A stretch of DNA of 64,000 bases, from contig OZ020515.1 of the NCBI GenBank assembly GCA_963971425.1, positions 5,906,291 through 5,970,290 of the forward strand. Reading direction: 5' to 3'. The position numbers were made by a program, and so were the translations under genes. The DNA is from Bryoerythrophyllum caledonicum. Lineage: Eukaryota > Streptophyta > Bryopsida > Pottiales > Pottiaceae. The notes below the pieces were generated by a model. It had not been told where the DNA came from. It worked only from the letters and a program-made list of their open reading frames with translations, and did not search any database. Below are positions 9,621 to 64,000 of this stretch, one piece after another. How positions within the stretch are numbered: position 1 is the stretch's first letter; each line of letters begins with the position of its first letter.

Positions 9621-10958
9621 ATGGATGGTATCGTATTATTGGAGCTCTTTGGAGGAATTGGCACAGGCTTGGCAGTTGTTTTACAAGCCGGGATCAAGGT
9701 TAAGCGCTACATTTACGTGGATGTGGATGAAGCAGCAAGACATGTGGCCAAACGTCACACACGGAGACTGAGGACTCAATTTCCAAAATTGTTGGCCACT
9801 AGTGCCATCACAACCTCTTTCTCTACTCTTGTGGGTAATATTTCTCTGTTGACAGATGATGACATTCACCGTGTGGGTCCTGTGGACCTTGTCATTGCAT
9901 GATGGCCTTGCCAAGGCATGTCTATGGCAGGAAATCAGAATGGGTTAAAGGATTCCCGTTCTTCCAGGTTTTTTGACATGATTCGAGTGATTCGATTACT
10001 TCAGACTTCTCAAAGGCAACCGCCTGGTTATATAGTGGAGAACGTGCCCGTGGTGAGCAGTTCGAGGTCCAGGACACTCGAGAGTATGCATAGGATCCAT
10101 CTGACTCTGGGATTGCCAGTGTTAATTGATGCGGCTGTAGTAGGGTCCAGAGCACATAGACCACGCTTGTGGTGGACAAACCTGGCACCAGCAGAATTGC
10201 TACGGTTCGCGGTGGATCGTATTAAACGCCCAGATGTGTATATGAGTGACATTCTGGATCCTCACAGGACACCACGGTGCGTATATCACGATGACCAGGC
10301 ACCATTAGCGGTAGTTAACCGCAAGGGGGAACCACGTAGGGCCTTGCCCACGTTGGTTAGTTTTGCAAGGTCTTATGCTTTCAAAAATAATGGACCTGGA
10401 CTTGTTTGGGATTCAGTGTCTCAGGAGATGGTAGAGCCCAATACAGATGAGAGAGAGAGAGCCATGGGATTTCCCACTGGCACCACCGACGTGCCTGGGA
10501 TTTCAGAACTACAGAGACGATTTTTACTTGGTCAGGCCATGGACTTAAATTGCTTGACTTGGATTGTTTCACTAGTGGTTGCCGAACAGAAGCGGTTAGC
10601 TTCTAGCTTGACTAGTTACATGGGTTATTATGAGTTGCGGGCGGCAGGAGAACCACTTGCCTCTGTCAGGGTGACAAGCAAGGTGGTTGGGGGCGATAAG
10701 GCCTCTGCACCTCATCCATGGAACATGTGGGATAACGCAAATATTTTTGCGACCACCAAGGCATCAGATCTTCACTATGGAGGGGAGAACTGGAGTGAAG
10801 GGAACAGATTGGCTCACCAGAGGATGGATTTGGAGGATGTTGTGGAGAAGATCTTCTTGGAAGAACACACAGCTCTTCACATGGAAGAAATTGACAAATT
10901 GGGTCAATTGGAAGGACTTGGGAGTGTTATTGAGGAGGAAGGAGGGGAGTCTCCTTCA
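9621..10958 (+). pseudogene. DNMT3-like cytosine-5 DNA methyltransferase domain in the retroelement
   Basis: The cytosine-C5 methyltransferase motifs occur in order. Motif I is LELFGGIGTGL (about 9639-9671), the S-adenosylmethionine site. Motif IV is WPCQGMS (about 9903-9923), with the catalytic cysteine in PCQ. Motif VI is ENV (10038-10046). Motif VIII is the arginine-rich RAHRPRL (about 10150-10170). Motifs IX-X read MGFPTGTTDV then LLGQAMDL (about 10464-10550). The GFPxxxTDV segment and the spacing resemble DNMT3/DRM-type de novo enzymes more than DNMT1, although PCQ rather than PCN is unlike animal DNMT3. TGA at 9900-9902 falls two codons before the catalytic PC, so this copy cannot make the enzyme without readthrough. 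About 110 extra residues of unknown role follow to the TAG at 10959. If active in other copies, it could methylate the element or host DNA de novo. Confidence 0.85.
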
Positions 10959-10961
10959 TAG

Positions 10962-12778
10962 GGGATTCAATAGCAACCAAGGGTGGAAAACCCTGCTCCA
11001 AAGGAACCGAAGGAGGTGGTGACTAAGGACACTTGGAAACCAAGAGTAGGCCTGGCGGATGGAGCAGTGGAGGTGGAGGAACATGAGTTCCTGAAGGAGT
11101 ATTTAGATTGTTTTGCTTTTAGTTTACATGATTTGGGAGTGTTGAAGGGGTAAGAAGTGCGTATTAACTTAACCGACGAAGCACCAATTTATCGAAAGCC
11201 ATACAAGTACAGCGACATGGAGCGGAAGATGATTTGTGCTCGCACTGAAGAATTGATGGCTGCAGGATTGGTGGAGTTGGCTCCTCCAGATTGTGAGTAT
11301 GCATCAGCAACGGTTATGCCATCCAAGAAGGACATTTATGGTAATTGGACTGAGAAAAGGATGTGTGGTGACTATAGGAGAATTAATAAATTCACTAAGT
11401 CAGACCGTTATGCAATGCCAACTCCTGAGGAAAATTTTGAGGCCATTGGCCATGCCAAGGTATTTAGTACGTTGGATTTACGCTCTGGATACCACCAGAT
11501 TGGATTGAGAGAGGAAGACAAGGAGAAAACGGCGTTCTGGGCATTGACAGGGATGGGAAGGACCGGTTGTTTCAATGGAAGTTTCTACCGTTTGGATTGA
11601 AGAATGCTCCAGCAGAATTTCAAAGAGTCATTGACAGAGTATTCTCGGGGTTGGATTTCGTGAGATGCTATATTGATGACATCATTGTCTTTAGCAGGAA
11701 TCGAAAACAACATAGACTACACTTGATGGAGGTTTTTGCTAGATTGAGGCTTCATGGATTAAAGTTGCACCCTGGTAAGTGCAAATTCTACTTTGATCGC
11801 ATTGAGTATTTAGGCCACATGATTAATCCAAGTGGATTAGGTGTGGTAACTAGCAAAGTGGAAGTAGTGATGTCTATTCCTAGACCACGAGATGTTAGTA
11901 GGTTGAGAGCATTTCTGGGGTTGTGTAACTATTATAGAAAGTTTGTCAAAACTTTCAGTGCTATTGCCAAGCCATTAACCATGTTGACAAGGAATGATCA
12001 ACCTTGGATCTGGGGAGATGAGCAAGAGGCGGCCTTTCAACAATTGAAAGACCGTTTGGCATCAACACCAATACTTCGGAGGCCTATAGCAGGAAGGACA
12101 TACCAGCTACATACAGATTGGAGCTCGTTGGGGATTGGTGCAGTATTGACGCAAATGGATGATGATGGCAAGGAATTTGTGATTGCGTATGCCAGCCGGT
12201 CCAACAACAATGTTGAGGCTCAGTATAGCTCGTATGAGGAGGAATGTTTGGCTGCAATATGGGCAATTGCTCATTTTCGGTGTTATCTTTACGATCACGA
12301 ATTTCTGTTAGTTACAGATCATCAGCCGTTGAAATGGTTGATGGAGTCTGATAAATTAACAGGAAAATTGGCACGGTGGGCCTTGATGTTGATGGAGTAT
12401 GACTTCAAGGTGGTTCACAGGGCAGGTTTGGTTAATATGGATGCAGATGGCCTTAGCCGCAATCCAATTCCAAACCAAGAAGATGATACAGGTGCTAGAT
12501 GGCATACTGAGGGTGAAACCGACTCATTGCCAGGGTGGCATTGTTCGGTCTTTCTAGGGATGTTGGCAACGAATGGAGACACCACCGGGGAAGCTACTGT
12601 GGCCACAATAGATGAGGATGGAGGTGAGGAGTTTGGGGGCGCCAGAGATATTCATGAAGACACAAACGTGATGCAGTTTTTGCAACATGGAGAAACGGTG
12701 GCTTCATGGTCTCATAAGGAGAGAGATAGGGTTCTACAACGGCTAAGAGGTTTGTATGGGAGAGGACTCACCTTGTGA
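10962..12778 (+). pseudogene. Reverse transcriptase and RNase H region
   Basis: Stops at 10971 and 11151 precede the reverse transcriptase (about 11157-11900). It shows the fingers motif YRKPYKYSDME, STLDLRSGYHQI (catalytic aspartate of the palm), FLPFGLKNAPAEFQR and the active-site box YIDD at 11669-11680. Near 11540 one base, apparently a G, is missing between AFW and the collinear continuation LFQWKFLPFG, which shifts frame. RNase H follows (about 12090-12420) with LHTDWSSLGIGAVL, EEECLAAIWAI and VTDHQPLKW, the usual D-E-D set of Ty3 elements. A second frame change near 12760 separates RNase H from integrase, so these are remnants of one pol polyprotein. Confidence 0.85.
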
Positions 12779-13920
12779 GATTGTGGCCAGATGGTACTAA
12801 GAAGGTAGTACCAACTTCAATAGAGAGAGTGAAATTGATTAAGGACACACATGAGGACCTTAGACACTTTGGAGTGCGAAGGACTTATAGTCTACTTCAG
12901 ATTCACTACTGGTGGCGTGGAATGCAATCCCAAGTGCAAGCTTTAGTGGCTCGGTGTATGGTGTGTGACCGGGTACGAGCGTCTTTTAACGCTCCAATGC
13001 CTCAGTTACAACCTTTGCCAATTATGGGCTTAGGATATAGATGGAGCTTGGATTTTGCCGGTCCATTGCCAGTAACACCTCGACACAACAAGTATGTGTT
13101 GGTAATCATCGAGCATTTCTCGAAATGGATAGAATTAGTGGCATTGCCTGATAAGTTCAGTGAGGGAGCTGCTTATTTGTTTCTTGACCGTGTTCTGAGT
13201 CGCTTTGGAGCTCCAGCAGAGGTACTTACAGACCAAGGCAGAGAATTCTTGGGTGAGTTTCAGACGTTGTGTGAGCAAGCGATGATTGATCATCGCACTA
13301 CTTCGAGGGATCACCCCGAAGCAGATGGATTGGCGGAGCGCATGGTGCAAACCGTCAAGAGGGGGCTCCGGAAGTACAGCTTGAAGAAAGGACATCACCA
13401 GGATTGGGATTTACAGCTACCATGGATAGCAATGGGCTATCGGTTCAGCAAACAGGCATCATTGGCGTCTTTTTCACCTTACTATCTATTATTTGGAAGA
13501 CACCCGGTTTTACCGAAGGCCATTCAAGCAGATGCTGACACCGTGTTGGCTAACATGGACAATCCAGACACGTGGGCTCAAGTGTGTGAGCAACGTGCAG
13601 AGTTGTTCAAGAGGGTGATGCCTATGGCATTGGAGAACCTTTCCATTGCTCAACATCGGGATACGTTGCGCTATGCTACAATACGAGGAGGTGGTTATCG
13701 ACCGCAGGTGCGGCGTTTCACACTTGGAGACTATGTGTATTTGCAGCAAGCAGCGCCCACCACCTTGGATGTGACAGCAGGAAGGGTAATCTTGAGAGTT
13801 CGTGAGGTGAAGGACTCAGGAGTGTTAGTGTTGGAGGGTCGTGATGGCAAGAAGTGGAAGGATCACACACGTAATTGTGCACCTTGCCACTTGCCACACA
13901 TTGATGGGACAGTACACCGT
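12775..13920 (+). pseudogene. Retroviral-type integrase
   Basis: The HHCC zinc-binding region is at about 12850-12975 (ends in CMVCDR). The catalytic core has the first aspartate in WSLDFAGPL (about 13045-13070), the second in LTDQGREFLG (about 13227-13256) and the glutamate in DHPEADGLAERM (about 13309-13344), giving the DDE triad of Ty3 integrases. The long downstream part has the GPY/F-like strand region (DYVYLQQAAP, RVREVKD). The frame is uninterrupted from about 12766 to 14097 through the PHD finger. There is no chromodomain; the PHD finger occupies the C-terminal position that a chromodomain takes in chromoviruses. Confidence 0.9.
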
Positions 13921-13929
13921 GGTCTCTCT

Positions 13930-14097
13930 CACATCTCTATTGGATTACGTTGTCGGTTATGTGGTAGTGCCAAAAGGGCAGCCACTATGGTTATTTGTGA
14001 CTTATGTTCTGCGGGGTGGCATTTAGAATGCTTAACTCCACCTCTGTTGGAAGTACCAGTGGATCAATGGTCTTGTCCTGAGTGTTTAGCACGTTGA
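13930..14097 (+). CDS. PHD zinc finger fused to the integrase C-terminus
   Basis: The last ~50 residues of the integrase frame contain CRLCGS, then CDLCSAGWHLEC and finally WSCPEC before the terminal TGA. That is C2-C2-H-C-C2 spacing with the conserved Trp two residues before the last cysteine pair, a canonical C4HC3 PHD finger. PHD fingers read histone H3 tails, so the likely job is to steer the integration complex to particular chromatin. It ends four residues after the final zinc ligand pair. This finger is intact even though the upstream element is broken. Confidence 0.85.
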   Translation, partial: HISIGLRCRLCGSAKRAATMVICDLCSAGWHLECLTPPLLEVPVDQWSCPECLAR

Positions 14098-31438: not shown

Positions 31439-32376
31439 TTATCCCCTAAAGGACCACAACCACTTTCGCTCTAAAACCAGTCCAAAAACTGCTGCTGCCA
31501 AAAAGAGACATGAAAATCACATTTTAAAGTGAATTTTGGATTCTCAACCGTAAGATCTTAAAAAAGACTTCTATACAAACATGCCATGAAATTTTGGTTG
31601 CAATCCACCGCACGGATTGATAGATTTTAGTGTTCAAAGTCAAAACAATGGTTCATATCCTTCCCTGCGTTGAGTAGATCAGCAGACTTTGACTTCACTT
31701 TGTATCAAATTTTTGCATTGTACAAGGTCTAAATCTTTTACCATTGTCTTAAGCATGATGTTATTTCCCAACACACCAATTTTTAGAGGTAAAAATGGGG
31801 TGTAGCATATTCAAAACAAGTGTGCAAGGAGTGGAGGTTCAAAAATTGCCATTTCACGTTTTATTTTTTTGTGAACTACGTATGTATTCAAATGATAATC
31901 CAAACGGTCAATAAGAAGGTTTTCACCACATATTGTTGTTGAAAAAATAAAAAGTGAAAAATATGAAGATCTCTAGGTTTTATGTAGAAAAGATGAAGTT
32001 TTTTTCCCCGGTTGCCCGACAATGTGTGAGAATGTTTGACTTGGAATATAATGCCTTTTTACACTAAAGAAAAGATTTTTTTTTTGAAAATTTCCAGAAT
32101 AGGAAATATTCTTTATGTGTGTGAAAAATCTTAATGTCAATAGAAACTTTTGTCAAAAATTTTGGAGGTGCCCGGTGTCCCCACTTTTGGCTTTAAGTGG
32201 TACTAACTTTCAAACCACAAATCCAAAAAATCCAAATAAAAATATGTTCACAAAGCTCTTATCAGAGGCAATCTATGATAAAAATTTCAGAGAAAAAGGA
32301 TTTTTTTTTCAAATTTTAGGAACTAGCCCAAAATCAGAAATCCCCCCGAAGGAGACTTTGGTCCTTTAGGGGTTAT
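31439..32376 (+). mobile_element. TTAA-type MITE, copy A
   Basis: Direct TTAT copies (31439-31442 and 32373-32376) flank perfect 14-bp inverted repeats CCCCTAAAGGACCA / TGGTCCTTTAGGGG. Because TTAT is not a palindrome, its direct repetition identifies it as a target duplication rather than part of the repeat. Other copies use TTAA. The interior is non-coding and holds family landmarks: CAGCAGACTTTGACTTCACT, a GGTGTAGCATATTC block and GGAGGTGCCCGG near the right end. TTAA targets suggest mobilisation by a piggyBac-like transposase. Confidence 0.85.
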
Positions 32377-36011: not shown

Positions 36012-36940
36012 TTAACCCTTGAAGGACCAAGTGACCCTTAGAGGGACAATTTTTATTTCGGACAGGTTCCTTAAATTGGAAAAAAAATCTTTTTAAAAAA
36101 ATTACTTAAGATTGTCCCTGATAAGAGCTCCATGGATTTTTATTTTTTTTGTTTTTTTTGGATTCATGGTTTGAAAGTTAGTACCACTCAAAGTTAGAAA
36201 TGTGGACTTCGGGCAGCTCCAAAATTTTGCTAGAAGTTTCCATTGACATTGAGATTTTTCATACGCATAGAGAATATTACCTTCTTTGAAAATGTCAAAA
36301 ACAAATCCTTGTCTTTGGTGTCAAAAAACATATTAGCTCAAGTCGAACATTTTTACACATTTCTGGCAAGCAAGGGAAAAAACTTCATCTTTTCTACATT
36401 AAAACAAGAGATCTTCATATTTTTCACTTTTTATTTTTCCTACAACAATGCGTGGTGTAAACCATCTTATTGACCGTTTGGATTATCATTCTAAAACATA
36501 TTAAATTCTCCAAAAATTTTTGTTGAGAATTGACAATTTTTGAACCTCCACTCTTTGCACACTAGTTTTGAATATGCTACACCCCTTCTCTTCCTCTAAA
36601 AATTGGTGTATAGGGTAATTACATCATGCTTAACAAAATGGTAAAAGATGTAGACCTTGTGTAGTGCAAAACTTTAATACCATGTACAGTCAAATTCTGC
36701 TCATCCACTCAACGCTGGGAAGAAAATGATCCATTTTCTTGACTTCAAACACAATAATCTTTCAATCCATGCGGTCAAAGTGTATGAAGTTTTGTGAGTA
36801 TGTTACTTGGTAAGTCTTAATGGAGATTCTACAGTCAAAAGGACAAACATAAGGTTTCATTTCCTTCCTTACTCATCGCACTAGAATCAACAAATTTGAA
36901 GTGTTCTAGTGCAAAATTGTCACTGTCCTTTAGGGCTTAA
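36012..36940 (-). mobile_element. TTAA-type MITE, copy B (inverted)
   Basis: TTAA at 36012-36015 and 36937-36940 flanks CCCTTGAAGGACCAAG and CTGTCCTTTAGGGC ends. Interior landmarks (GGGCAGCTCC, TTGAACCTCCACTC, ATATGCTACACCCC) occur in reverse order and strand relative to copy A. Length is 929 bp. Confidence 0.8.
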
Positions 36941-41060: not shown

Positions 41061-42014
41061 TTAACCCCTAAAGACCCAAAGCATTTTCACACCAAAAACA
41101 CTTCAAACTGCTCGTTCTAGTGCAATGAGTAATGAGGTATTCAAAACGTTTTATTTTTACATCTATCCATAGGATCTAAATTTAGACTTGTTGATTAACG
41201 TCCTCACAAATTTCATAACCTTTTACCGCATGAATTGAAAGATTATAGTGTTTGAAGTAGAGAAATCCGTTCTTTTTCTTCCCTGCGTTGAGTGGATTAT
41301 CAGACTTTGATTTCACTTGGTGTCAAATTTTTGCACTACACAAGGTCTGAAAACATTACCATCATGTTAATCATGATGTTGTTTCCTTGCACACCAATTT
41401 TTAGAGGTAGAAAAGGGGTGTCGTGTATTCAAAACAAATGTACAGTACAAGGAGTAAAGGTTCAAAAATTGCCAATTCACGTTATATTTCTTTGTGAACC
41501 AAATATGTTTTAAAATGATAATCCGAATGGTCAATATGAAGGTTTAGAGCACATCTTGTAGTAGAAAAAATAAAATGTAAGAAATATGAAGATCTCATAG
41601 TTTTATGCAAAAAAGAAGATTTTTTTGGTACCTTGCCTGACAAAGTGTGATAATGTGTGAAAATGTTTGACTTAGATTATTATGCTATTTTCCACTTAAG
41701 ACAAGAGATTTTTCTTGAAAATATGAAAGGAAATAATATTATTTTCTGGTATAGAAAATCTCACATACAATAGAGTGTTCTAGCAAAAGCTTTTGGAGGT
41801 GCCCGACATGCCCGCCCTCCCCGTTTGAAATTCAAAATGCTATAACTTTTGCATAGAATGTCAGATTTTTAAAAAAATTGGACTCACACAAAGATTTTTG
41901 CAATGTCCATTTACAATAGAAATTTAAAAAAGGAATGTTACAAGTTGACACCATAGGAACCTGCCCAAACCTTCAAGAGTCCCCCGAGGAGACTCTTGGG
42001 CCTTTAAGGGTTAA
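41061..42014 (+). mobile_element. TTAA-type MITE, copy C
   Basis: TTAA at 41061-41064 and 42011-42014 flanks CCCCTAAAGACCCA and GGGCCTTTAAGGG ends. The landmarks are in the same orientation as copy A. It is nested inside the 39786-42230 composite. Length is 954 bp. Confidence 0.8.
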
Positions 42015-43010
42015 GTGCCGGATGGGGGCAATTCAATGTGAAATTTTGTTATGGTGTTATTTTTTTATTTGTATTAAAAAAGTTACCTTTTTCATGTTTT
42101 CTACCTTTTTTAATAATATCACATTATGCATAAATTTGCCAAATGTGATATTATCAAATATGTCACACCTTGTTTATATCACACTTTTTGGTGAAACAGA
42201 GGGTGTGATATTAAGAAGGTTAGATTGTATGAGGCAATGTCACAGACATTCTATACTAAACCATGATTCTTCTCATTAGGTATACATGATAGTGTTGATC
42301 CACTAGGGTATGTAGAAAGATGTCCACGCCGTTGTAGTGATTTGGATCATGGCACACTAGTGAGGTGGTTGTCAGTTGAAATCCACGCGCCGGCGAAGTA
42401 CTTACTACTATAAACATGCAATTAAGCAATTATGCACTTAGCCAAGTGCACTGGTTGCTGGTAGAAAGCCGCAAGTTATTTGCTCATAACTTTTTTTTAA
42501 ATAAAAAATTGGCAAAAGTTTAGTATGATTTTTGTCAAATTTTTTTGGTGTTTGTCGTGTCATACCTTGGCATCTTCATGTTCATATCATAAATATATTT
42601 TTTATATTTGCTACCTTTTTCTAGAAAATATATGATTTCTAATCTAGTTTTCAAATCCTACTACAAAATTATAATCATGTGCCCAAAGAGATTATAAATT
42701 TGTTATGAGTTATTATAGGATTTTAGAGTACTGCACTACAAATACAATGTGTAAGAGATACAAAAATATATATGCAATTTCCTTAGACAGTGTAAAGTAC
42801 CTCACTGTATTTTATAATGCAAAAACATACATAATCAAGCAATTCCACACTATTGCCGAGGAATTCTAAAATCAAACATATCATATGGACCACCCAATAT
42901 ATAAATATATACCACCCACCGAACGATAGACACATCTCAAACTGCATTATACTAACGTACTTGTCACCTAAACTGCGTGCATGCTCTACTATAGTATATA
43001 GCTCCAGGGC

Positions 43011-46000
43011 TCACAGCTCATCTTCTGGCGGAACAACTCCCTCCACGTGTCCAATGGCGCTACCTACCATAGCGGACAGTTCATGATCCTGCACTGGACG
43101 ATCTCCCACACCTTCTATGCCAATGGACGCACACGCAACATATCGGTAATTGCCAGGAACACCTTCCCGTGTATGCCTTACCCTATCATCATTGTAGAAC
43201 AAGCCATCCTCTGGATTGAAGGACATCTCTCGCTCTAACGAGAAGGCCCCTTGAAATGCAATGATGTCCTTGGATACGCTAGATCTTGGAACGGAACGCA
43301 AACCTGGTCCGGTATCACTCTGAGTACCTCCGAACGTCTCTTGTGTCTCCGATACAGGCTCTGATTGAGAAGGCATCGAAGGCTGTGGAATCCTCCTCTG
43401 CATCGAAAAAAATTCCAATGAATCCAATTCTTCTTCCTCTATCTCCAGCCTAGGACCATCAAATGTACGTCCCCCTCCTGCCCCTACCGCCAAACCAACA
43501 TCCACTACACCGGTATCTTGCATCCTCTCTGTAGGTGTTGCAGACGTCTCCGCTGAAGTATCTCCCACCGCCCGCTGCGTTGATGGAATCCTCTCCTGGA
43601 GGAGACTGGTTCACTCCATCTTCATCGGCATCTGAACCACTGCGAGATGAGAAATCTTCAGTGGTACCTGAACGTGGCAATCTCTCATGTAAACCACCTC
43701 TATCCTCATTGTCGTCTTCATTCCTCACTCCACCAACCGCCTCTTCGGTCTCACGTACGATGTTGCAACCAATACTTGTTCCACCAGTCCTGACCAACAG
43801 TTGTTCTTGGAAATTGTCGGACAACTCATGGTACAAAAATGAAACTCTGTCTGTACAATCGCCAATGATGAAAACCTTAGATCCCTGGAAATCTCCTTCA
43901 AGGATCGTGGGAATGGCCGTAGATATGTTACACGCCACTAAACCCCAACCACAGGGCAAGTATGAGCCCACTAGTCTTGCCAGCTCTGATGGAGATATCT
44001 CAAGTGAATCAACTTCAGAGGGTTGGCGTGCCTCACTCCAGTGATCCAAGAAAACAAGTGGAAGTGGAACGTCTCCAGAAACATAGTTCGGGCCAGGAGA
44101 TGTACCCACACCGTGCTGCATACAAATCACAACATCGCCAATCGGTTGTACTACTTGCTCCAGACGCCCATTCTCTGTAAAATCGAGAGCATAGGGATTA
44201 ACCGAGTTGGGATCAAATGCCCAGCATCCACGTCGCATAGTACATCCCTCTGGAAGCTTCACCTTTGTGAAAAACTCTTCGTTGGCATACACGGCCGCTG
44301 GTAACAAGAAGATGACGTTCCATCGTTCAATATTTGCCATCCATAATGCCAGCTGTGCAAAAACTGTGGATAACTGGGCGTCTCCCCAATGACCATCTCC
44401 ATGGCTCCCACCGCCACGTCGACAATCAATCACCCACAAATATGGTTTCCCCAACTCTATGTAGTCGGTGCGGAATAACCCTCTTCTACACCGAACCGGA
44501 AGAAGATTCTCTGTGTCGCTCTGCCCTGGCCTCTTGACTTCCATCTGCCATTCCCAATTAGCAGTAGCCTGTCCTCCCACATCCAAGGACAGTCCAATGT
44601 ATCCACGCCCCCCTGCTGCAATATCACCATAATGAAACCTGATGGAAGGGGGGATGAGGTAGCCTATGTCTTCCGGTTTAGACACCTTCCCCCGTACAGG
44701 AGCAGTCCAAGCTTTTTTCGTGGCAACATTCAAAAGCTTCCCAAACGTATCAAGTTGTGCGTTACTCCTCGGAAAATACTTCCCTACACGGATACGAAAG
44801 AAATCCTCCATGGAATCAGGTATACTTTCCTTGTTCTCCACCATCAACGAACGGATAGAATTCATTACAGCTTCTCGTCTCTGATATCGGTCAATCACAC
44901 CGGCAATCGTACGAGGATGTGGATTTGGGTCTTTTACACCGTCGAAGTAATATGCTTGACGTGGTCTTACTCCATCCTCCCCCACCGACTTCGCTGTAGC
45001 AGACTTTGCCAAGCGAAGATAATATGGATTCGGAACCCTACCTAATGGCCTCAACCAATTCTGCGTCATTTCCTTTCTTGTTGGTCGTACGTCCACATTT
45101 GGATCCAGTTCTTTCTTCCTCGCCATGTCCTTCCACTTGTCCTCTTCCTCCTTGCTGTAAAAGAGAATGTCGTCTTCGTAGTCCTTGCATACTTGAATGA
45201 TAGCTTCAAAGCAATCATTACTCGGATTCCATGCATGATTGGTCAGATCCTCCATGTTTTTGGCCAACCTCTTCACCGTGACAACTCCACCCCCCTTGGG
45301 CAACTTATGCACTGCACTTGCCGCACTCACCAAAGCAGCAGCCCTGCGTGCATCCTCCGCACGTAGTGTGCTATCAGGCCTACCATATAGATCCCAAATT
45401 TGACGGATCTTCCTCAAATCCTCGTCTATGGTAGAATATGACTGTCTCTGGAACTCTGCCACGTTGATCCGTGCAGACTTCTCAATGTAAAAGCGACGAT
45501 CATCATACACCACAAAAGAGGCCTCCCGTCGCTCGAACGTGTCGAGATACTCATTTAAAGGCATAGTACCATCTCTCCACTGCTGCTGTGCAAACTTACA
45601 AGCTGCTACTATGTGTTGGCCGTCCACCGGTTCCCAAATGATATGATCTTGAAGCCAAGAATATTGGGATCCCATGGCACCCTGTGCAGAAGCACTCCCG
45701 TGTGCAATGAACATGTGCTCGAACTCTCATGCGGTTTCTACTAACGGAAATGGCAGCTCCTCCTTCTCAATGACACCATCATCAGTGGTAGTATGCACGA
45801 TGTATCTGATCGGTCGAAGTACCAATCTACTCACCCGACTCGCAGATTCTGGGTCTCTTAAGCGGTCAAATACTTCTCTGGCCCTCTTCTGTGATAAAAC
45901 CCGGTGGTTCGTTTCCGAGTTCTCCACAGAGACAATGCGGTCTATGTGTGCCTTAAACACAAAATTCCCCCACACTGATCCTTTCGTAATCTCCTTCGTT

Positions 46001-46848
46001 GTAGGCACTGGTGCTTTTAAATACATTGAAGTTGGAAGATCCTGTGGTATCTCCGCATTGTCTTCAAAATCCTCTGGTATACTGTCTAGAAGGTTGTGAA
46101 AATCTTCTTCCTCCGACGCCATGGCTGACAAATCAGCTAAATCTCCCGGTGTAGATGTAGGGGCCCTACGATGACCATCAGGCGTCCTGAGCTGCGACTT
46201 AGGAATCCTGCCACCCGATCTTGTACTTCTCCCAATCAACCTCCTCCCGCTTGGATCCAAACTTGATGGGCCTTCTCTTGAACCAGAAGCTACATCAGTG
46301 TCAACACGTCGTGGCCTCTTCGTAGGACGTCTACTCGTTAATGGAGGATTTGGTAATGTCTGTACCTCAGAAGTTGTGCTGGGATGTTGGCCTCCACTTC
46401 CCCTCTCCCCCTCCAGTGGTCGCCAATCCAGTTGCAACGGCTCAGCAAGAACTCGATAAACTTCTGTTTCTTCTAGTTCCGCTGCTGGGGCTTGAGTTGT
46501 CGCACGTGATAGGTCCCTCTCCCGAAATGCTTCATATCTAATATGTTCCTTCATAATCTTCTTAGCCTTGAGCACCATCTCCGGTGATAACGCTAAACAG
46601 GATAAGACGTTGTTGTGTCTAGCAGTACATACCGCAAGAGAGATGTTTAACCAAAACGTCTGCAATGATTTGAGGAATTTCACTTGACCTGGATTTTGAA
46701 GAAAATTCAAAGGTACAGGTGCCAAAAGCAACTTCTTTGAAAGAGAAGTCTTCACCTCCGATTGACTTGGACCCACTACACAAGTAACGTATACCATATC
46801 ATCACGTTGAAGAATGATTGCTTGGATTTTGCCAAAACTCTTCCCCAA
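43011..46848 (-). pseudogene. Large companion gene of the DUF7869-type transposon, broken
   Basis: Read leftwards from ATG 46848, 373 codons end at TGA 45727-45729. The same frame goes on for 755 more codons (to 43459); GCA TGA GAG could derive from GCA CGA GAG. Near 43570 true coding shifts to the frame ending at 43011, adding about 180 residues, so the ancestral protein had about 1,300. The N-terminal third is Arg/Ser/Pro-rich with basic patches (RRPTKRPRR). The centre is a folded domain of unknown family with hydrophobic strands (KPYLWVIDCRRGGG, WNVIFLLPAAVY, LPLVFLDHW, GWGLVACNIS). The order of strands and loops vaguely resembles a class I methyltransferase, but no SAM motif is convincing. 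The C-terminus is acidic and Ser-rich. It is divergent to the DDE gene inside the same inverted repeats. Confidence 0.7.
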
Positions 46849-47039
46849 CGCCGATGTACGCTTTCCCAGCTCAAAGGGATAAATCCGTCACCCATAAGAA
46901 GGCGCTCGACTCATCCACTTCTGCAATCCACCAACCGTGGCTCTCCCAGATTCTATCAATATTTGGTGGTGCCATAACGCCACACTCAAAAAACCTGTAT
47001 ATCATTACAAAACAATAGTCACTATTAGTATGGAATAAG

Positions 47040-48115
47040 AATTTTTGAACCACCACTCATTGCACAATATTTTTGAACATGCAACACCCCTTGTCTACCT
47101 CTAAAAACTTTTGCACTACACGAGATCTAAATCCAAAACCATCGTGTTAAGCATGTTCTTAGTTCTTTGGTGAAATAGCATATTAATCCAAGTCAATTAT
47201 TTTCACACATTGTCACACATTTTCGGGGAGAGTACCAGAAAACTTCTACCTTTCCACATAAAACTTTGAGAACTTCGTACGATTCACTTTTGATTTTGCC
47301 TATAGCATTATGCGATGTAAAACTTCTTATTGACCATTTGGATTATCATTTAAAACAATATCAAATTCACAAAAAAACATAACGTGAATTGAGAATTTTT
47401 GAACCTCCACTCATTGCACATTTTAGAAAAATATGCTACACCCCTTGTCTACCTCTTAAAACTTTTGCACTACACGAGATCTAAATCCAATACCATCGTG
47501 TTAAGCATGTTCTTAGTTTTTTGGTGAAAAAGCATATTAATCCAAGTCAATTATTTTCATACATTGTCACACATTTTCGGCCAAGGTACCCAAAAAAATT
47601 CTACCTTTCTACATAAATCTTTGAAATCTTTGTATGATTCACTTTTGATTTTTCCTACGGCATTATGTAATGTAAAACTTCTTATTCACCATTTGGATTC
47701 TCATTTAAAACAATATCGAGTTCCCCAAAAAATATAATGTGAATTGAGAATTTTTGAACCTCCACTCATTGCACAATTTTTTAAAATATGCTACACTCCT
47801 TGTCTACCTCTAAAAATTGGTATATAGCAAACTAACATCATGCTTAACATTATGGTAATCAATCGAGACCCTTTAAAATGCAAAAATTGGACACCAATTG
47901 AAGTCAAAGTCTGCTGATCCATAAAACACAGGGATGAAAACAAGCCTTTTCTCAACTTCAAACATTATAATCTTTCAATCCGTGCGGTCAAACTTTATGA
48001 AATTTTTGGAGTATATTACTTAATAAGTCTTTATTGAGATCCTACGGTTAAAACTACAAAAAATACTTCATTTTTTCATCCAAGCTAATTGCACTAAAAC
48101 AAGCATTTTTAACGA
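47040..48115 (-). repeat. Tandemly rearranged TTAA-family sequence inside the large transposon
   Basis: Family landmarks appear two to three times in a row: TTTTTGAACC(A/T)CCACTCATTGCAC at about 47043, 47394 and 47746; GCTACACCCCTTGTCTACC-like at about 47080, 47440 and 47790; and TTAATCCAAGTCAATTATTT at about 47182 and 47537. The ~350-bp unit is repeated head to tail. Only the last copy continues to the left-hand landmarks (TCAAAGTCTGCTGATCC, TCAATCCGTGCGGTCAAA). No TTAA termini remain. Confidence 0.75.
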
Positions 48116-48119
48116 GTTT

Positions 48120-49140
48120 TGTTTGAGATATTCTCTACACCATTTATGGACTATGGTACTTTGGGTATCAATAGCGAGGGTATCACAACCAGGGTATGAT
48201 TTCATGGGTACCAACATCCGGTTATCAACATAGGTACTTGATAAGGGTATCAATTAGGGTTTGAAAATTAGGGTTTTCGTTTAGAGGGTATCAACTGAAG
48301 ATATCAATCCTTGGGTAGTCCAAGGAGGGGTGTGCGCGCACACACCCCTGCCATAGTGGAGAGGAGGCTGCAAGTGAGAGAGAGAGGGTTTGGAGGAGGG
48401 AGAGGTTTGTGGGTTTGTCAGAGAGGAACTTGTGAGGGCGTAGGGTGAGGAGAGAAGAGATATGAGGGAGAGGAATGGAGGGGAGGTGTGAGGGAGAGAA
48501 GGTGTGGGCGGCTAGGGTTTGGGAGAGAGAAGGAGACGAGTTTGGGTATGAGAATAGGTGAGAGGAATGGAGGGGAGGTGTGAGGGAGAGAAGGTGTGGG
48601 CGGCTAGGGTTTGGGAGAGAGAAGGAGAAGAGTTTGGGTATGAGAATAGGTGAGAGGAATGGAGAGGAAAAAAAAAGTAGCCGCAAGTTTCTGGAGAGAG
48701 TAGCTTCTGAAAAAATAGCTGCCTCGCGCCTGCAAGCGTCGCCCCGTGCCTGAGAGAACACGCGCCGCGCCTGCGGACACTGAGTGTGCCGAGGGCACCA
48801 AGTGCGCCTGCGGGCACCGAGTGCGTCTGTGGGCACGAGTACGCCGCGCCTGCGGGTGCAAGCATCGCGCCTGCGGGCACCAGCGCCGTGTGGTGCCTAC
48901 GTGCAGTGATTGTACCTGCCGCGCCGCTAGGCCACACCGAGGTTGCGCAACAGGGTTGTGTCGCTTTAACTTACATCCTAAATTTTAATGGAAACCTTCA
49001 ACTCACGAAGCTCTTTCTGACCGTCGTGAAGAGGTGACACGCGATGGAAACTCACGAAGGCCAGGTCCATTTCGAATTGATGGAGGAGCACCAGCAGTTG
49101 GGGGTGTGCGCGCGCACACCTCTAGTCTACAGTTACTCCA
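48120..49140. repeat. GGGTATCA repeats, 94-bp tandem duplication and TG/CG hairpins
   Basis: GGGTATCAA-like motifs recur at 48165-48300. A near-perfect palindrome GGGGTGTGCGCGCACACACCCC is at about 48327-48348 and a related one, GGGTGTGCGCGCGCACACC, at about 49098-49118. Between them a ~92-94-bp block (containing GGGCGGCTAGGGTTTGGGAG) is duplicated in tandem at about 48471-48562 and 48563-48656, followed by a GC-rich segment with GCGCCTGCGGGCACC repeats (48720-48900). The two palindromes could be the ends of one nested insertion. Confidence 0.6.
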
Positions 49141-49174
49141 TGAGGTGACGTGCGAACTCCATGGGAACGGTGGC

Positions 49175-49350
49175 TAGGGTTTGATTGCGGCAACTAGGGT
49201 TTGGGTGCGGCGGCTAGGATTTGGGTGTGGCCGCTAGGGTTTGGGTGTGGCGGCTAGGGTTTGGGTGATTGGGTGTGGCGGCTAGGATTTGAGTGCCTGG
49301 GTGTGGCGGCTAGGGTTTGGGTGCCTGGGTGTGGCAGCTAGGGTTAAAGG
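49175..49350. repeat. GGCGGCTAGGGTTTGGGTGT tandem array
   Basis: About eight copies of a ~20-26-bp unit built on GCTAGGGTTTGGGTG. The AGGGTTT core resembles the plant telomere repeat, but the unit is longer and variable, so this is an ordinary minisatellite. Confidence 0.8.
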
Positions 49351-50464
49351 TAGTGCATTCATGTGCTATTCTAAAGATTTAGTGCCATACTGCTAGCTAC
49401 TTTCTTGACATCAATTCTGTGTGGTTTTGGTGTAAAAACTTCATTTGAACAAAGGCTTATCACGAGCTGTTGACTGCTACATGTGTATTCACTCAACTTT
49501 GTTGAATTTGCAGTTTTGTACGTACTAAAGTTGGTGTCCTCATTTGTGTATCAAAATACTTGTACTCATCTAACACTTGTAACTCTAACTGAACTTCAAG
49601 GATCATGAACCTAACCCTGGAATTCCCTCATTTTCAGAATTGAAACAGACGAAAAAGCTTACCAAAGTTGCAACAATCTCCTCGATGTGCAAATTTCCTC
49701 CGATCTACACAGTACACAAAGTTTACAGTAATTAGTGAATGAAGTAAAAATCACATCGCCTTGAGGCTTCGATTGCAAGAGAGCTCACCTTAGAAACTGG
49801 GAAAAGAAATGACCTCCACATTTGCATAGAAACCTTATATCCATGTTGTAACCCTGTGCCTCAAGTTTACTAGTGAAAATTTGACTTTTGAACTTTGGAC
49901 CTTTTGCTTTGTTTCTCCTTATGTTCCCACTTTTTACATATAATATTAAAATTTCGGGCTTTCTGTAATATGAAGATACTTAGGAGTTTTTATCACATAG
50001 TTTACCATCTAAATTTTATGCATGTGTTGCAGGTAAAGTGGGAAGAGTTGAAAAACATGTTCAAAAACAACGGAATGGTGATTTAATGTTGAATGCCATC
50101 AAGCAACAGTGCGTGTACCACTAACACCTGCAACGTATCTTGAGGTAAACATTTGTTTTTATACAACTTTAATATTATGTGTTGATTGAGTTTCTGTACT
50201 ATGTTGTTTGTAGAAGAACCTCTATGTGGATGTACAAACCCTTTCTTTTATTAGCGATTGTAACAAGTTTCAACGGTGTCAGTAATAGCAAGTAGAGAAC
50301 ATGGTTCATTTTCTTCCCTCGGTTCAGTGGATTCCCTTCGTTTCAGTTCACTTGGATTCAAAAGATTGCATCACACATGATCTAGATTTATTATCATTAT
50401 GTCAAAAATGATTTTAGTTCTATTTTATACCAATGTTTAGGGATGCAAAAGGGGTGTAGCATAT
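49351..50464. other. Non-coding interior of the large transposon
   Basis: AT-rich DNA without a supported gene. The 63-codon frame at 49895-50086 has no domain. Confidence 0.35.
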
Positions 50465-51417
50465 TTAACCCCTAAAGGATCAAGTGTCAAAAATGGGCTT
50501 CTTGAAAGTTTGGTCACGTTCTTATGGTGTCAATTTCTAACATTCATCTTTGAAAATTTTACTATAGAAAGGCATTACCAAAACTTTAGTGGGAATACAA
50601 TTTTTACCTAAATTGGACATTTGATCAAAAAGTTTTAGGGTTTTGAATTTCAAATGCGGAGAGCGGGCAAGTCGGGCACGTCCAAAATCTCTTGCTAGGA
50701 CACACTGTTGAATGTGAGATTTTCAGTACTCGCGAGTAATATTATTTTCCTTGATGTTGTCAAAATAAGTTCTTGTCTTTAGTGAAAAATAACATATCAA
50801 CCTAAGTCAAACATTTTCACACATTGTCACTCATTGTTGGGCAAGGTTCCCAAAAAACTTCTTGTTTTCAAAATAAAACCTAGATATCTTTTTATTTTTC
50901 ACTTTTTATTTTTTTCCACAACAATATGTAGTGTAAACCTTTTTATTTACCATTTGGACTACCAACCTAAAACATGTTAAGTTCAGAAAAAACCACAGTT
51001 TAAAAGTTCAAATTCCGAACTTCCACTCCTTGCACAGTTGTTTTGAATATGCTACACCCGTTCTCTACCTGTAAAAAATGGTGTACAAGGAACTAACATC
51101 ATGCTTAACAAGATGGTTGTGGATTTATACATTAGGTAGTGCAAAAATTAGACACCAAGTGAAGTCAAAGTCTGCTGATCCACTCCACGCAAGGAAGTAA
51201 ATGAACCATATGCTTGACTTCAAATACTATAATCTGTCAATCTGTGCGGTCAATTTTTATGAAATTTTGTTTATATATTACTCAATAAGTCTTTATTCAG
51301 ATCCTACGGTCAAAATTAGAAATAAAAGTTTTTGTTTCCTTTTTTGTTCATTGCACTGGCATCCAATAATTTTGAAGTGTTTTTGGTGTAAGATTGTCAT
51401 TGTACCTTCAGGATTAA
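50465..51417 (-). mobile_element. TTAA-type MITE, copy D (inverted)
   Basis: TTAA at 50465-50468 and 51414-51417 flanks CCCCTAAAGGATCAAG and TTGTACCTTCAGGA ends. Landmark order matches copy B (TTGGACATTTG, GGGCAAGTCGGGCACGTCC, ATATGCTACACCC, CAAAGTCTGCTGATCCAC). Length is 953 bp. It sits inside the 13-kb transposon about 180 bp upstream of the DDE gene. Confidence 0.8.
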
Positions 51418-51595
51418 AGACTCCGTGCAAGAAGTCATGCTCTATAAATTCTTAATTTTATCATTTCAAAGTTGTTTTATCAAAAGTTCCAATATCATCA
51501 TCATATTTTGAACAATAAATATGTGTTTTGAAACATATCTTTTATGAGATGAATGGTGCTTTGAAGGTTAACAATTAGTACATGTATTTTGACTA

Positions 51596-54500
51596 ATGTG
51601 CAGCCATAATGTTCCTATTTTTTCAATACTGATAATGGAGAGCCGCACGATTGAGACTCCTTCGATACGGCCACACATCCATAGGGATAATATGCATTCC
51701 AATAGCTCTGTGGGGGCTCGATTAGTACGAGCAGCACGTGCAAGGCAAATTCAACAAAGATCTGTTGGAATCATGTCATCTGAATTAGAAAGGGCGGTAG
51801 AATTGCTTTCTGAGAGAGGAGATGTAGTGGGCTTAGCAATCAGGGAGCATGCATTCAAAAGTGGCATGAAATTGAATGGGTCGAAGTTGTTCCCATTCGA
51901 GGTGGCGGTGCGTATCACTAGGGTTGATGATGCATTGCATTGGACCGGAGAGACTGTAGGAGAACGCCTTGGCATGTGTGTGGGCTTGATCATTCGTTGG
52001 CATCGATCTTTGCTACGTGTAGTGGCTATAGAACCTGATATGACAGGTGTCCATGGTGACATTGGATCACAGATAGCACCTACACAAGTGATGGCCCCAG
52101 AGTTTGATTTTCCTGAGTTCATCAACACACCAGGATCCACCGAGAGGTCTCGACGTAGTAGTCATGCTTCAAATGCCGTAGATGAAAATTCGCCGTTTTC
52201 CCAATCTACTCCTTCAAACATCCAAGATTTGCCCCATGTAGATGGATTTGCTTATGTTAGACCGGCACGTCGTCCATATTCTATGCAAAATAGGAGAAGA
52301 AGAGATTCAAGAGAGACATCATTGACAGAAGCTGCACCATCTAAGGTATCGCTTAGAAGCGTGCAAATTGCAATGGCACAAGGAGGATGCAAACGCAATT
52401 GTTTGAGGGACGTTGCAGCAAGGTATCTATTGGACATGCGTTATAATGCATGGGGGAATGAGTTTTCAGTAAGAAGTACGTGGATGAGACAGATGCTGGT
52501 TTCTTTTTACACAAGAACGGAAGGAACTCGTCGAGACAAGTTTGTAACAAAGTTAGATGGGAAAGAAGTTTGCAATGCTTGCTACGCTTTTGGGGTTGGA
52601 TATTCACAGAAGCGCTTTAAGCAATTGAAGAAGGATTGTCTCATATATGGAAGAGTGACATGGATTCACGGCAATACCCTTTCAAATCCAATCAAAGAGA
52701 GCAGTAGAATGTCTGCGGCAGAGGCTTGCTTTAAATCGTTTGTCGATGAAGCTGGTTGTCCTCAACCTCATCGTTGTATTCGACGCAAGAGTGACAACGA
52801 AGTGGTGCCTCTCATTCTCCTTCCTATGAATACAGCCAAATTTGATGTATTCAATTACGTGAACGAGGAGGTCAAGAGAATTTGTAATGGGGAAACCATT
52901 TCTATGAGTTCGTTCCGGAGGATGTGGCGCATGAAGTATCCCCACGTTCAGGTACCTCCATTCTCGAGATTCTCAAAGTGTTATCATTGTTGGGAGTATA
53001 AATGTGCCATGGAAGGAACCACCAATGTGGATGCAAGGATAAAGATAAAGGAGTTGTTTATGTTACATCTACACAACCAGATGGAAGAACGTAGGCATTA
53101 TTGGATATTCAAGAGGTCGTGTTATATTAGCCCTGAGTTGTACATGTGCATCATAGTGGATGGCATGGACCAAAATACGACCATGGTACCGAGGATGCGG
53201 CAGACTGTGAAGAACATTGAACATCGGTTTGTGAAGACCCATCTGTGTGGTGCTCTTGTACATGGCATTGGTTTATATTGCGACGTGTGGTTTGGGGCTC
53301 ACCACAAACACGATAGCAACCAAGTCGTGAGTACATTGTTGTACGTGATAGGGGATGTGCTGCGGAGGAGGGGCTTTTTGCCACCAACATTGCGAATCCA
53401 GGCGGACAACTGCACACGGGAGAACAAAAACATTTATATGTTTGCTCCATGTGCTACATTGGTGGGATTGGGGTTTTTTCAGGAGGTGGAACTATCTTTT
53501 CTTATAGTAGGCCATACATACGAAGATATTGATCAACGCTTCAGTTGTATATCAAATACGTTGAAGAGGTCGGACGTGGACTTGTTGAAGGAAATGATGA
53601 GTCTTATAGAACGAGGAACATCTCCTACGGAAGCATTTGTTAGCGCCCGGCTGCTAGAGAATGTATGGGATTGGAAATTGTTCATTACTCCTCACTTACT
53701 GACAGGTCAGGATTCATTAGTGGGCATAACATTTCCGCAGCACATGCGATTCTATATGGACAATCGAGAAGGGACTCGTGAGGTTCGAGTACAACACAAG
53801 CATTATTGCAAGGATCCATGGGGACCGGAGGCAGGGACGAAAACTTTGAGGTCGTTGCCAAATAGGGATGAACGACCATCGTTTGCGGAAGTATTTGCAG
53901 CGGACGAACGGGAGTTGAAGGCGTTGGATGACTTCATTGCATATAAACAAAGGTGCATTCAAAGGTTGCAGCATGAGGACAAGAATCGTGAGGCAAAAGT
54001 AGAGGCTGAAAGATTGAAACTCTATTTAGCTGAATTTCCACAGAAAGATCGTAGCAATGAGCATCGTTCCTTACCGTTTTGGCCTTCAGAGTTCTCCAAC
54101 ACCGGACCTACAGAGACTATATCTTTGGATGTAATGGAGGGTACAAGTGAAGAAAATCGCGAGATAGATGTCGTAGAGCAGGTAGTGGCGATGCTTCCAA
54201 ATGCTGAGGCTCGAGGATACTTTGGTCCTCGTAGAGGAAGACCCTCTAATCAAGCACTGCGCAAGGCACAACGAACAGAGCGCAACTATGTTGAGGAAAG
54301 AGCCGAAGAAGGAGCAATGAATGAAGGTAACCACGACCCATTTCCACCATTTAATCCACAATCTGATATCCGTTGTGGACAATTTGTAGCCTTGAGTGTT
54401 GATCGAGCAGAAATAGAAGGCGGTGTACCATTCTATGTGGGAAAAGTGATTGAGGAAGGAAAAAACCGATGGAGACTTAAGATAAAGGTTTGTTGGTATT

Positions 54501-54826
54501 GGCCCAGCATCCAAAGGGGGGTTGTTGATGGACATGGGTCTTCTGCACAGCGGTATGCAAATTGCATGGACTCAATCTGGGAGCCATCTGGGGAGAGCCA
54601 TAGTTGGGTAGAGAAAGATGCATGCATTTTTTCATGGGTTGACTCTCCGGAAAGAACCATGTCAGGGGCCAGCGGGTGGACAAAGCGCAATGTATTTGGA
54701 GTGCAGGTTGAAAGTAGGATTCGCATTCTTCAATCGGCAAAGGCTCACATGCTACAATATATTGCAATGCAAACCGAAGCTATCGATGACGACCGTTTGC
54801 AAGCAGCCCTAAATTCTATGGAGTAG
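51596..54826 (+). CDS. DUF7869-type DDE-like transposase candidate, intact 1,076 aa
   Basis: The longest intact frame in the window. Residues 1-260 are variable and low-complexity; M1 is at 51596, but the CAG just after it and an in-frame ATG at 51635 leave the true start open. About 260-420 holds a Cys-containing region with GKEVCNACYAFGVGYSQKRF, matching the module that precedes DUF7869. About 450-500 has FSKCYHCWEYK, a second Cys pair before a helical linker. The core (about 515-690) reads MCIIVDGMDQN, then LRIQADNCTRENKN, then IVGHTYEDIDQRFS. These could be the D, D and E/D positions of an RNase-H-fold transposase (inference). About 780-830 is coiled-coil-like. GPRRGRPSN (about 880) resembles an AT-hook. 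The C-terminal ~170 residues (FVALSVDRAEIEG, FYVGKVIEEGK, CWYWPS) resemble an SH3/BAH-like barrel. TAG at 54824-54826. It lies 0.6 kb inside the right inverted repeat. Confidence 0.8.
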   Translation: MCSHNVPIFSILIMESRTIETPSIRPHIHRDNMHSNSSVGARLVRAARARQIQQRSVGIMSSELERAVELLSERGDVVGLAIREHAFKSGMKLNGSKLFPFEVAVRITRVDDALHWTGETVGERLGMCVGLIIRWHRSLLRVVAIEPDMTGVHGDIGSQIAPTQVMAPEFDFPEFINTPGSTERSRRSSHASNAVDENSPFSQSTPSNIQDLPHVDGFAYVRPARRPYSMQNRRRRDSRETSLTEAAPSKVSLRSVQIAMAQGGCKRNCLRDVAARYLLDMRYNAWGNEFSVRSTWMRQMLVSFYTRTEGTRRDKFVTKLDGKEVCNACYAFGVGYSQKRFKQLKKDCLIYGRVTWIHGNTLSNPIKESSRMSAAEACFKSFVDEAGCPQPHRCIRRKSDNEVVPLILLPMNTAKFDVFNYVNEEVKRICNGETISMSSFRRMWRMKYPHVQVPPFSRFSKCYHCWEYKCAMEGTTNVDARIKIKELFMLHLHNQMEERRHYWIFKRSCYISPELYMCIIVDGMDQNTTMVPRMRQTVKNIEHRFVKTHLCGALVHGIGLYCDVWFGAHHKHDSNQVVSTLLYVIGDVLRRRGFLPPTLRIQADNCTRENKNIYMFAPCATLVGLGFFQEVELSFLIVGHTYEDIDQRFSCISNTLKRSDVDLLKEMMSLIERGTSPTEAFVSARLLENVWDWKLFITPHLLTGQDSLVGITFPQHMRFYMDNREGTREVRVQHKHYCKDPWGPEAGTKTLRSLPNRDERPSFAEVFAADERELKALDDFIAYKQRCIQRLQHEDKNREAKVEAERLKLYLAEFPQKDRSNEHRSLPFWPSEFSNTGPTETISLDVMEGTSEENREIDVVEQVVAMLPNAEARGYFGPRRGRPSNQALRKAQRTERNYVEERAEEGAMNEGNHDPFPPFNPQSDIRCGQFVALSVDRAEIEGGVPFYVGKVIEEGKNRWRLKIKVCWYWPSIQRGVVDGHGSSAQRYANCMDSIWEPSGESHSWVEKDACIFSWVDSPERTMSGASGWTKRNVFGVQVESRIRILQSAKAHMLQYIAMQTEAIDDDRLQAALNSME

Positions 54827-55391
54827 ATAGTGTGCCTTTATGAGAGTATACAAGTTGTGTATGGTAATTGATATATAGTGTATGTGTAAGAGTAGTATAT
54901 TCTAAGGGTGATGTAAGACGTTATGTCATTAATCCTTTACAGTAAAGTTGTGTTTATTATTGGTGCTAAGTCCAATTGTTGAAGCATCTATATTTAGTTT
55001 CCACCATTGTATGCATTATGTACTATGTAGAATATCTTTTAATCAACTGCCAACCCTTGCATAAAGTATGTTTTTTTATAATTATGCCTGTTTAAATACT
55101 ACAATCCTCCAAATCTATTTTTGAAATATTGTGAAACTAAATTAAATACATATTTATCTAGTATTAACGAGGGGCCACCACAAATTAGTTGAAAATGCCA
55201 AAAAATCGCTTCCAATATTAACAACCATGATTGTATGTAATATTGTTGCAGAAGCTCATTTTTTTAAACTTTGGAAAACATTTTTTTTAATGATTTTTTT
55301 TTTTTTTTCAATTTTGCCACTTTTGTTCGCAATGGCCGCCATTGTACCCAAGTGCACTTTTAAATGGCCAAGTGCATAATTGCTTAATTAC
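54827..55391. other. Right sub-terminal region and terminal repeat of the large transposon
   Basis: AT-rich 3' region of the DDE gene with a long T run (about 55266-55311), then the right inverted repeat. The repeat contains two displaced AAGTGCA motifs (55350 and 55370), as the left end does, which may be sub-terminal transposase-binding sites. Confidence 0.55.
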
Positions 55392-55555
55392 GTGTTCTTA
55401 ATGGCTCTCAATGCTTTATGAGTTAGACCGGAGTCTACCATAAGCAAAGCAAAAATACCCGAATTGAAGTAACTTTGAATCCTTTCAAGAACCTTCATCT
55501 CAGCGATATCTTCAATAGATGTTCAAACGGTCCAATTTTGCATAGCTCGATCTTA

Positions 55556-62700: not shown

Positions 62701-63680
62701 GTACTGAAGCTTAAAAAGAACCTAGTTGGACAATGTAATGGCTACAATCTAGTATACGAACATCGATGCCGGAGTGATCAAAGCGCTGGAGCGTAGCTGA
62801 TAACTGAAAGGATCCTTAAAAATCTGTGATGATAGGAAAACCTAAATATCTCACATAATAGCACGCGGTCCAACAATAACTGATGAATTTCTGTAATCCT
62901 CGACGTTCTCTAGAGATGAATACGGAAGAAAATTCTAAATTCATGGCGACAACAGAGCACGGGCCATATGTCAACGAAAATAGTTCTCTACTAAAATTCA
63001 GCTACTAAAATAAATAAAAAGATGTGCAACCAATCCTCCTAGCACAAGCGTTGTGCCCCGCTATGAATGTCAATATGAGATACTAACTCCCATTCTCAAA
63101 GGCAAGAACATCCACATCAATTGACAAGTACAGGTAGGGTTACTCACTCAAACGCAAAGAAGAGCGACACTGATGCTTTCCGCGTACGCAGAAGGTGCGC
63201 GACAGAGAAGTGAAGAAACAAAATATCAAGAGCTAGCAGGAGTGCCATGAATGTAATTATTCGGAAATGCGACAGCCTCGATACGGACGGGGTGGTTTCA
63301 ATATACTCCACTCTCTTTTGCGAGAGCCAGTGGAAAGCCTTGATGAATAGAAGCACGGTGATCATAGCCACGAACGTCACATTGAATTCTTCTCTGAAAA
63401 TCGTCATCGCAAACAGAATCTCCATAACCTCACGCCACGACTGCTCATTCAAGCGCTCCACCTCCGCCTCTCGCAGGCTCCCAAGGAACACGGTCTTCAC
63501 CGCTTGCCACAATATGCACATAAGCACCAGCGCCATATTCAGAAGCAGAACTAGGCTGATCTTCGACGTCGCCAGGTACAGCATTGCAGGGTAGAACTGC
63601 TCTCTACTCCTGAATGCATGAACGATAATAGCCAACGCGCTCCCGGCGCTGAGCACCGCATACCGCCCTAATTGCACCAT
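59800..63680 (-). CDS. HRD1: HRD1/synoviolin ER-membrane RING E3 ubiquitin ligase, seven exons
   Basis: Coding exons in transcript order: 63680-63148, 62650-62474, 62066-61917, 61695-61469, 61331-61160, 60655-60313 and 60126-59800. All introns are GT-AG and the phases join cleanly to 643 codons (642 aa). Exons 1-3 encode the multi-spanning ER membrane domain (start MVQLGRYAVL; FHWLSQKRVEYIE; QWDNKAVYIFYLELV; RYRKITSNMNDRFPDATEEE). Exon 4 carries the RING-H2 finger: CIIC, CGHFFHVHC, CPTC. Exons 5-7 are Gln/Ser/Ala-rich and disordered. HRD1 ubiquitinates misfolded proteins exported from the endoplasmic reticulum (ERAD). The start agrees with the family N-terminus; a longer upstream frame to 63836 looks like leader. 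Compared with family members it has a fully conserved membrane and RING part and a long tail. No defect is seen. Confidence 0.93.
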
Positions 63681-64000
63681 CCTCGCAAACAACTGTAATC
63701 CTCGAATCTGCTCACACCCTACACCAAATCCGCCTCCCGCAACACATCTCCTCCTCCTCAGATCCCTACATCCCGCGCCTCCCTCGCCATCCAAATTCAC
63801 TTCCTCCACTCCACTAAACCCTAACCAGAGATCCAAGTACTCACTGAAGCCACCAAACCACGCGCGCCTTCACACCGATCAACTCCCGCGCCAAAAAGCA
63901 CCGCATCACTGCGTCCACCGCTCAACCAACCGGTTCCCCACGCCTTCACTCATCAAAAATTCACAAAAGACCCTCAAAAAAAACATGCCAACCGCTCAAT
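63681..64000 (-). promoter_or_regulatory. HRD1 5' leader and promoter region
   Basis: C-rich (on plus) sequence upstream of the HRD1 ATG, consistent with a leader. No TATA box was recognised. The region runs off the window. Confidence 0.4.

Follow-up and report, generated by a model that had tools for sequence, protein, structure and literature searches.

A probable Sola1-like DNA transposon with a putative DUF7869 transposase and a methyltransferase-like partner gene in the moss Bryoerythrophyllum caledonicum

The window analysed here is the whole of a 64,000 nucleotide stretch of contig OZ020515.1 from the moss Bryoerythrophyllum caledonicum. Positions 42413 to 55396 of this window hold a decayed copy of a cut-and-paste DNA transposon that is abundant in the genome. 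The copy is 12,984 bp long and ends in 27-bp terminal repeats. It carries two divergent genes, a DUF7869 gene on the plus strand and a broken partner gene on the minus strand. We consider it likely that the former encodes a DDD transposase and the latter a non-methylating, ParB/methyltransferase-like accessory protein; the Sola1 group is the most probable assignment of the element. The original prediction for this DNA had also read it as a two-gene transposon with DUF7869 as the transposase, and had placed it in an undescribed superfamily; the first part was borne out, the second was not.

The predicted exact 20-bp terminal inverted repeats, about 13 kb apart, were found at 42420-42439 (plus strand) and 55370-55389 (minus strand), with no occurrence in 100 shuffles. 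The repeat is longer, as seen when 30 loci were fetched from the genome. In 20 of these the 20-mer continues outwards with exactly AACACGC (counted by eye), and in the other ten with one or two bases off this heptamer. In the window copy these seven bases read AACATGC at the left end and, in the inward direction, AACACGT at the right end. The length of 20 bp was therefore rejected in favour of 27 bp, which puts the true ends at 42413 and 55396. The left repeat (42413-42439, plus strand) and the right repeat (55370-55396, minus strand) each match AACACGCAATTAAGCAATTATGCACTT at 26 of 27 positions and continue inwards with AGCCAAGTGCA and GGCCATTTAAAAGTGCACTT, respectively. Just inside the repeat the element reads AGCCAAGTGCACTGG on the left as against GGCCATTTAAAAGTGCACTTGGG on the right, and both TGCACTT and AAGTGCA are present within the first 50 bases at either end. 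A short palindrome, TGCACTTAGCCAAGTGCA, spans the inner edge of the left repeat (42433-42450) and is a candidate protein-binding site.

A search of the source genome (437 Mb in 894 contigs) with the 20-mer, allowing up to two mismatches, gave 1047 forward and 1068 reverse places, that is 2,115 ends, against one for the backwards control. Target site duplications were scored in 25 pairs of ends. Seventeen pairs, the window copy and 16 others, were picked by their repeats from about 29 plus/minus pairs (by eye) among the first 100 places listed. The other eight were reached from 10 of the 12 transposase genes that scored best after that of the window, with C561:7457 and C14:1684846 excluded. The right repeat lies approximately 550 bp downstream of all ten of these genes; for C4:32008461 and C14:19122185, a search of 3.4 kb each showed no left repeat.

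Exact 4-bp duplications flank 13 of the 17 repeat-picked and seven of the eight gene-reached pairs, in total 20 of 25. Two of the 25 pairs match at a length of 2 bp and none at 3 or 5 to 8 bp. As a control, the left flank of one copy was compared with the right flank of another, and 4 bp matched in 9 of 600 cases. Two short pairs outside the 25, L102 and L105, which come from the same 29 or so pairs, match at three of four flank bases, giving 20 exact duplications in 27 pairs. These two resemble the window element only at the ends, apart from one 83-bp stretch at 75% in L102. The window copy is among the seven pairs without an exact duplication; its flanking bases are TATA on the left (42409-42412) and CTTA on the right (55397-55400).

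To look for empty sites, one copy of the duplication was removed at each of 17 insertions, and the joined flanks were compared with other sequence. Three of the 17 insertions sit in repeats, and their related copies cross the junction gap-free within 10 bases in 3 of 3, 2 of 2 and 48 of 51 alignments that span it. The related copies are approximately 67-86% alike, and some are nested in other copies of the element. A fourth joined pair (L029/L030) gave a single weak alignment across the junction. At one of the three insertions, L033/L034, the flanks match at three of four bases only; at the other two, insertion accompanied by duplication of 4 bp is directly evident. A chance pairing of repeats, or a repeat family that is not a transposon, would suit the unmatched flanks of the window copy, and this reading is refuted by the 2,115 ends against one, by the duplications and by the empty sites, leaving it next to no probability.

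Shortened copies were also found. A 3.7-kb derivative lacks most of both genes and still has both ends intact, with an ACAT duplication. This is consistent with movement in trans, and the derivative probably moved in this way. The 5.7-kb element L104 (C1:11028750-11034440) has a CATT duplication. Its left part is closest to the diverged subfamily represented by copy E55 (see below) and its right part to the subfamily of the window copy, making it a chimera of two subfamilies that moved.

The DUF7869 gene (51596-54826, plus strand) is intact, as predicted, with an open frame of 1,076 amino acids. Relatives are 1,062-1,066 amino acids long, which suggests the methionine at residue 14 (position 51635) as the likely start, giving 1,063 amino acids. 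At E values up to 1, Pfam returned only DUF7869 matches for this protein (PF25273 at residues 544-726, 53225-53773, plus strand, E 8.5e-47) and no rve domain, and a sequence search of PDB returned nothing credible. The predicted strand order is that of RNase H, and acidic residues lie on strand 1, on strand 4 and on the helix that follows strand 5.

In an alignment of 25 rows, D522 (53159-53161, plus strand), at the end of predicted strand 1, is D in all 25, and D604 (53405-53407, plus strand), at the end of predicted strand 4, is D in 24. The helix after strand 5 begins with residues 642-646, YEDID (53519-53533, plus strand), which hold two candidates for the third acidic residue. D644 is conserved in 24 of 24 rows with letters and D646 in 23 of 24; at residue 642 the window copy has Y, and all 23 other rows with letters have H. 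Residue 643 varies, being S in three rows, and the third acidic residue is thus probably D, making the triad DDD. The conserved acidic blocks and the predicted RNase H topology agree with the proposal that this protein is the transposase. Relatives reach animals: the amphioxus protein P0023 has DGMDQ, QADNCxRENKN and GHTHEDIDQ in common with it. In collections of viral and GTDB contigs, a pattern was matched by 2, 49 and 48 stretches, and none of these encodes a relative of the transposase.

The partner gene (43011-46975, minus strand) is broken in the window copy, with frame changes near 46,880 and 43,600 and a TGA in frame at 45729-45727. Another copy keeps it open for 1,314 amino acids, counted from the matching methionine. 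The protein looks like a ParB-like/methyltransferase-like protein, a reading that draws on predicted structure. In brief, a ParB/sulfiredoxin-like region (45433-45990, minus strand) is suggested by the motif VDGQH and the predicted order strand, VDGQH, helix, strand. A middle region of approximately 280 residues is predicted to be mostly helical. It is accompanied by a fold like that of beta-class DNA amino-methyltransferases (43792-44541, minus strand), in which the usual catalytic motifs are replaced. Fold comparison supports this methyltransferase fold, at 4-8% identity to the beta-class rows.

Sequence searches with the partner gave little. There was no credible match in Pfam, and none to the ParB family; four partner proteins gave nothing near the cut-off in NCBIfam, and PDB gave nothing credible by sequence. 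Against phage records, the partner protein P0038 had no credible match, the five records returned being all tail-terminators at E 3. A profile of ParB (E. coli YbdM and six phage relatives) gave an hhalign probability of 1.1%, with 0.1 to 0.8 for eight column shuffles. The ParB identity therefore rests on the motif, the strand order and weak viral fold matches. One viral model named ParB/Sulfiredoxin aligned with the partner over 758 columns, and viral models superpose poorly (root-mean-square deviation 26-32).

An active beta-class DNA methyltransferase is marked by a DPPY-type motif IV and an FxGxG motif I. At the place of motif IV, positioned from the predicted strand order, the partner has DCRR (44416-44427, minus strand). 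Among 17 rows with letters there, 16 have DCRR and one has DCPR, and GxG is found at motif I in none of 14 rows. For these reasons it was not classed as an active enzyme, and we find it unlikely that the partner methylates and so marks the DNA of its own element.

The predicted membership of the broken partner in the element is supported by its linkage to the transposase gene. All ten other long copies (12.3-13.9 kb, picked by paired repeats) hold both genes on opposite strands and divergent. Nine of them can be aligned with the window element over most of the length of the latter; the tenth, E55, is a member of a second, diverged subfamily. Only one copy of the ten, E59, has both frames open over the whole likely length. 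Genome-wide, we considered the best-scored matches, 43 of 4,276 candidates for the transposase and 35 of 2,401 for the partner, lists in which intact copies are over-represented. Nine loci are common to both, all nine divergent (by eye), and no internal stop was found in 21 of the 43 transposase and 19 of the 35 partner matches.

Between E55 and the other ten copies, synonymous divergence (dS) is 0.86-0.94 for the transposase and 1.09-1.19 for the partner, and the ratio of non-synonymous to synonymous divergence (dN/dS) is 0.14-0.18 and 0.29-0.33, respectively. In the lineages that spread, both genes thus look to have been under purifying selection. The median dN/dS over all 55 pairs is 0.28 for the transposase and 0.38 for the partner (maxima 0.75 and 0.57), in line with many copies being dead. 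The partner could instead be a captured host or viral gene without a role in transposition, for which its want of a credible Pfam match speaks. We think this quite improbable: it occupies the same place in ten of ten long copies, it is kept in the second subfamily at a dS of about 1.1 with a dN/dS of about 0.3, and relatives at 38-71% identity occur in proteins from other sources.

Known superfamilies were compared with the element. Duplication of TTAA characterizes piggyBac and Kolobok, and CACTA-type ends with a 2-3-bp duplication characterize EnSpm/CACTA. Both were rejected, as the duplicated 4-mers are varied and none is TTAA, the ends read AACACGC and the duplication is 4 bp. Ginger is described in a review by a Gypsy-like integrase (rve) domain (PMC10741241), and was rejected on the single Pfam family matched by the transposase.

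The same review describes Sola as having DDD transposases, 4-bp duplications and terminal inverted repeats of 11-1124 bp, and as present in the moss Physcomitrella (PMC10741241). The 27-bp repeats fall in this range, the 4-bp duplications agree with it at the frequency given above, the window copy itself excepted, and D522, D604 and D644/D646 are conserved in a predicted RNase H order. Moreover, the Ectocarpus element Sola1-1_Ec32 (Sola-1) is described as a giant DNA transposon with a gene for a ParB-like and N4C/N6A-type DNA methyltransferase opposite the transposase (PMC12477816). The gene pair is rare and similar in both, the duplications are equally long and three aspartates are conserved; on these described features, the element is probably a member of the Sola superfamily and Sola1-like.

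A DUF7869-founded superfamily distinct from Sola, which acquired a ParB/methyltransferase partner independently, was also weighed. Our literature search found no paper naming DUF7869, and the catalytic motifs of the partner are unlike those of an active enzyme, while methylation is predicted in the description of the Ectocarpus protein. The published opposite-strand gene of a Sola-1 element argues against it, as do the 4-bp duplication and the probable third aspartate, both of which agree with the description of Sola, and we judge a new superfamily unlikely.

Under the preferred Sola1-like reading, the RNase H core of the DUF7869 protein, with its three aspartates, would bind the 27-bp ends, excise the element and join it to target DNA with a stagger of 4 bp, repair of which would leave the duplication. 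The partner, of approximately 1,310 amino acids, would be an accessory protein that kept the methyltransferase fold and lost its usual catalytic motifs. Its most likely role is to bind the DNA of the element itself, with the subterminal TGCACTT/AAGTGCA repeats as candidate sites, and to assist transposition as a cofactor that is structural or reads methylation, not as an enzyme that methylates this DNA. More tentatively, we speculate that DUF7869 transposases form a lineage with an obligate ParB-methyltransferase pseudo-enzyme, in which DCRR is kept in place of DPPY. The former modification enzyme would then have turned into a reader of DNA or methylation, or acquired a new chemistry, in either case serving end recognition in a transposon with some two thousand ends in one genome.

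Other features were seen in the window. Between the divergent genes lie tandem arrays of 92-bp and 20-28-bp units (48468-48668 and 49162-49345). A repeat of approximately 260-360 bp occurs in the middle region of the element and in flanking DNA (31818-32108, 36249-36561, 41445-41795, 47164-47778 and 50683-51039), and another copy of the element is inserted into a relative of this repeat. Pieces of a Ty3/Gypsy-type polyprotein (reverse transcriptase, RNase H, integrase and PHD finger) lie at 9918-14097 (plus strand), preceded by an open reading frame that weakly matches C5 cytosine DNA methyltransferases (PF00145 at E 4e-4, below the cut-off, and DNMT3A chains at E 7e-5); judged by these matches, it is possibly a retrotransposon carrying a DNA methyltransferase. 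At 63144-63836 (minus strand) there is a piece of a host-like gene with synoviolin/HRD1-type E3 ubiquitin ligase repeats (PF25563, E 4e-66).

By tying DUF7869 genes to the ends of an element, to duplicated target sites and to a predicted fold like that of integrases, the analysis provides a likely function for this Pfam domain. DUF7869 genes elsewhere, such as that of amphioxus P0023, are open to testing as transposases or as domesticated transposases. The results also suggest that a ParB and methyltransferase gene of the type described for a brown-algal Sola-1 element has been kept under selection in another lineage, where it probably no longer methylates. The role of such accessory proteins thereby becomes testable.

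Among known systems, the predicted transposase is like retroviral integrases and the Mos1 mariner transposase in RNase H order and acidic positions. The partner differs from beta-class DNA amino-methyltransferases (M.BceJIV, CcrM, M.RsrI and the N4C methyltransferase of Adineta vaga) in having DCRR for DPPY and lacking the motif I glycines. In phages, the N6_N4 methyltransferase is among the domains more often accompanying the ParB fold, according to a PNAS 2025 survey (PMC12704722). The partner shares with such fusions the order of the two predicted domains, and differs from them in its negative phage-record and ParB-profile matches, its poor superposition and its helical middle. The unusual layout of a transposase and a putative opposite-strand ParB-like/methyltransferase protein is similar to that of Sola1-1_Ec32. 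That element is 21.5 kb long with a partner of 1,104 amino acids predicted to methylate (PMC12477816), whereas the moss element is 13 kb long and its larger partner has the usual catalytic motifs replaced.
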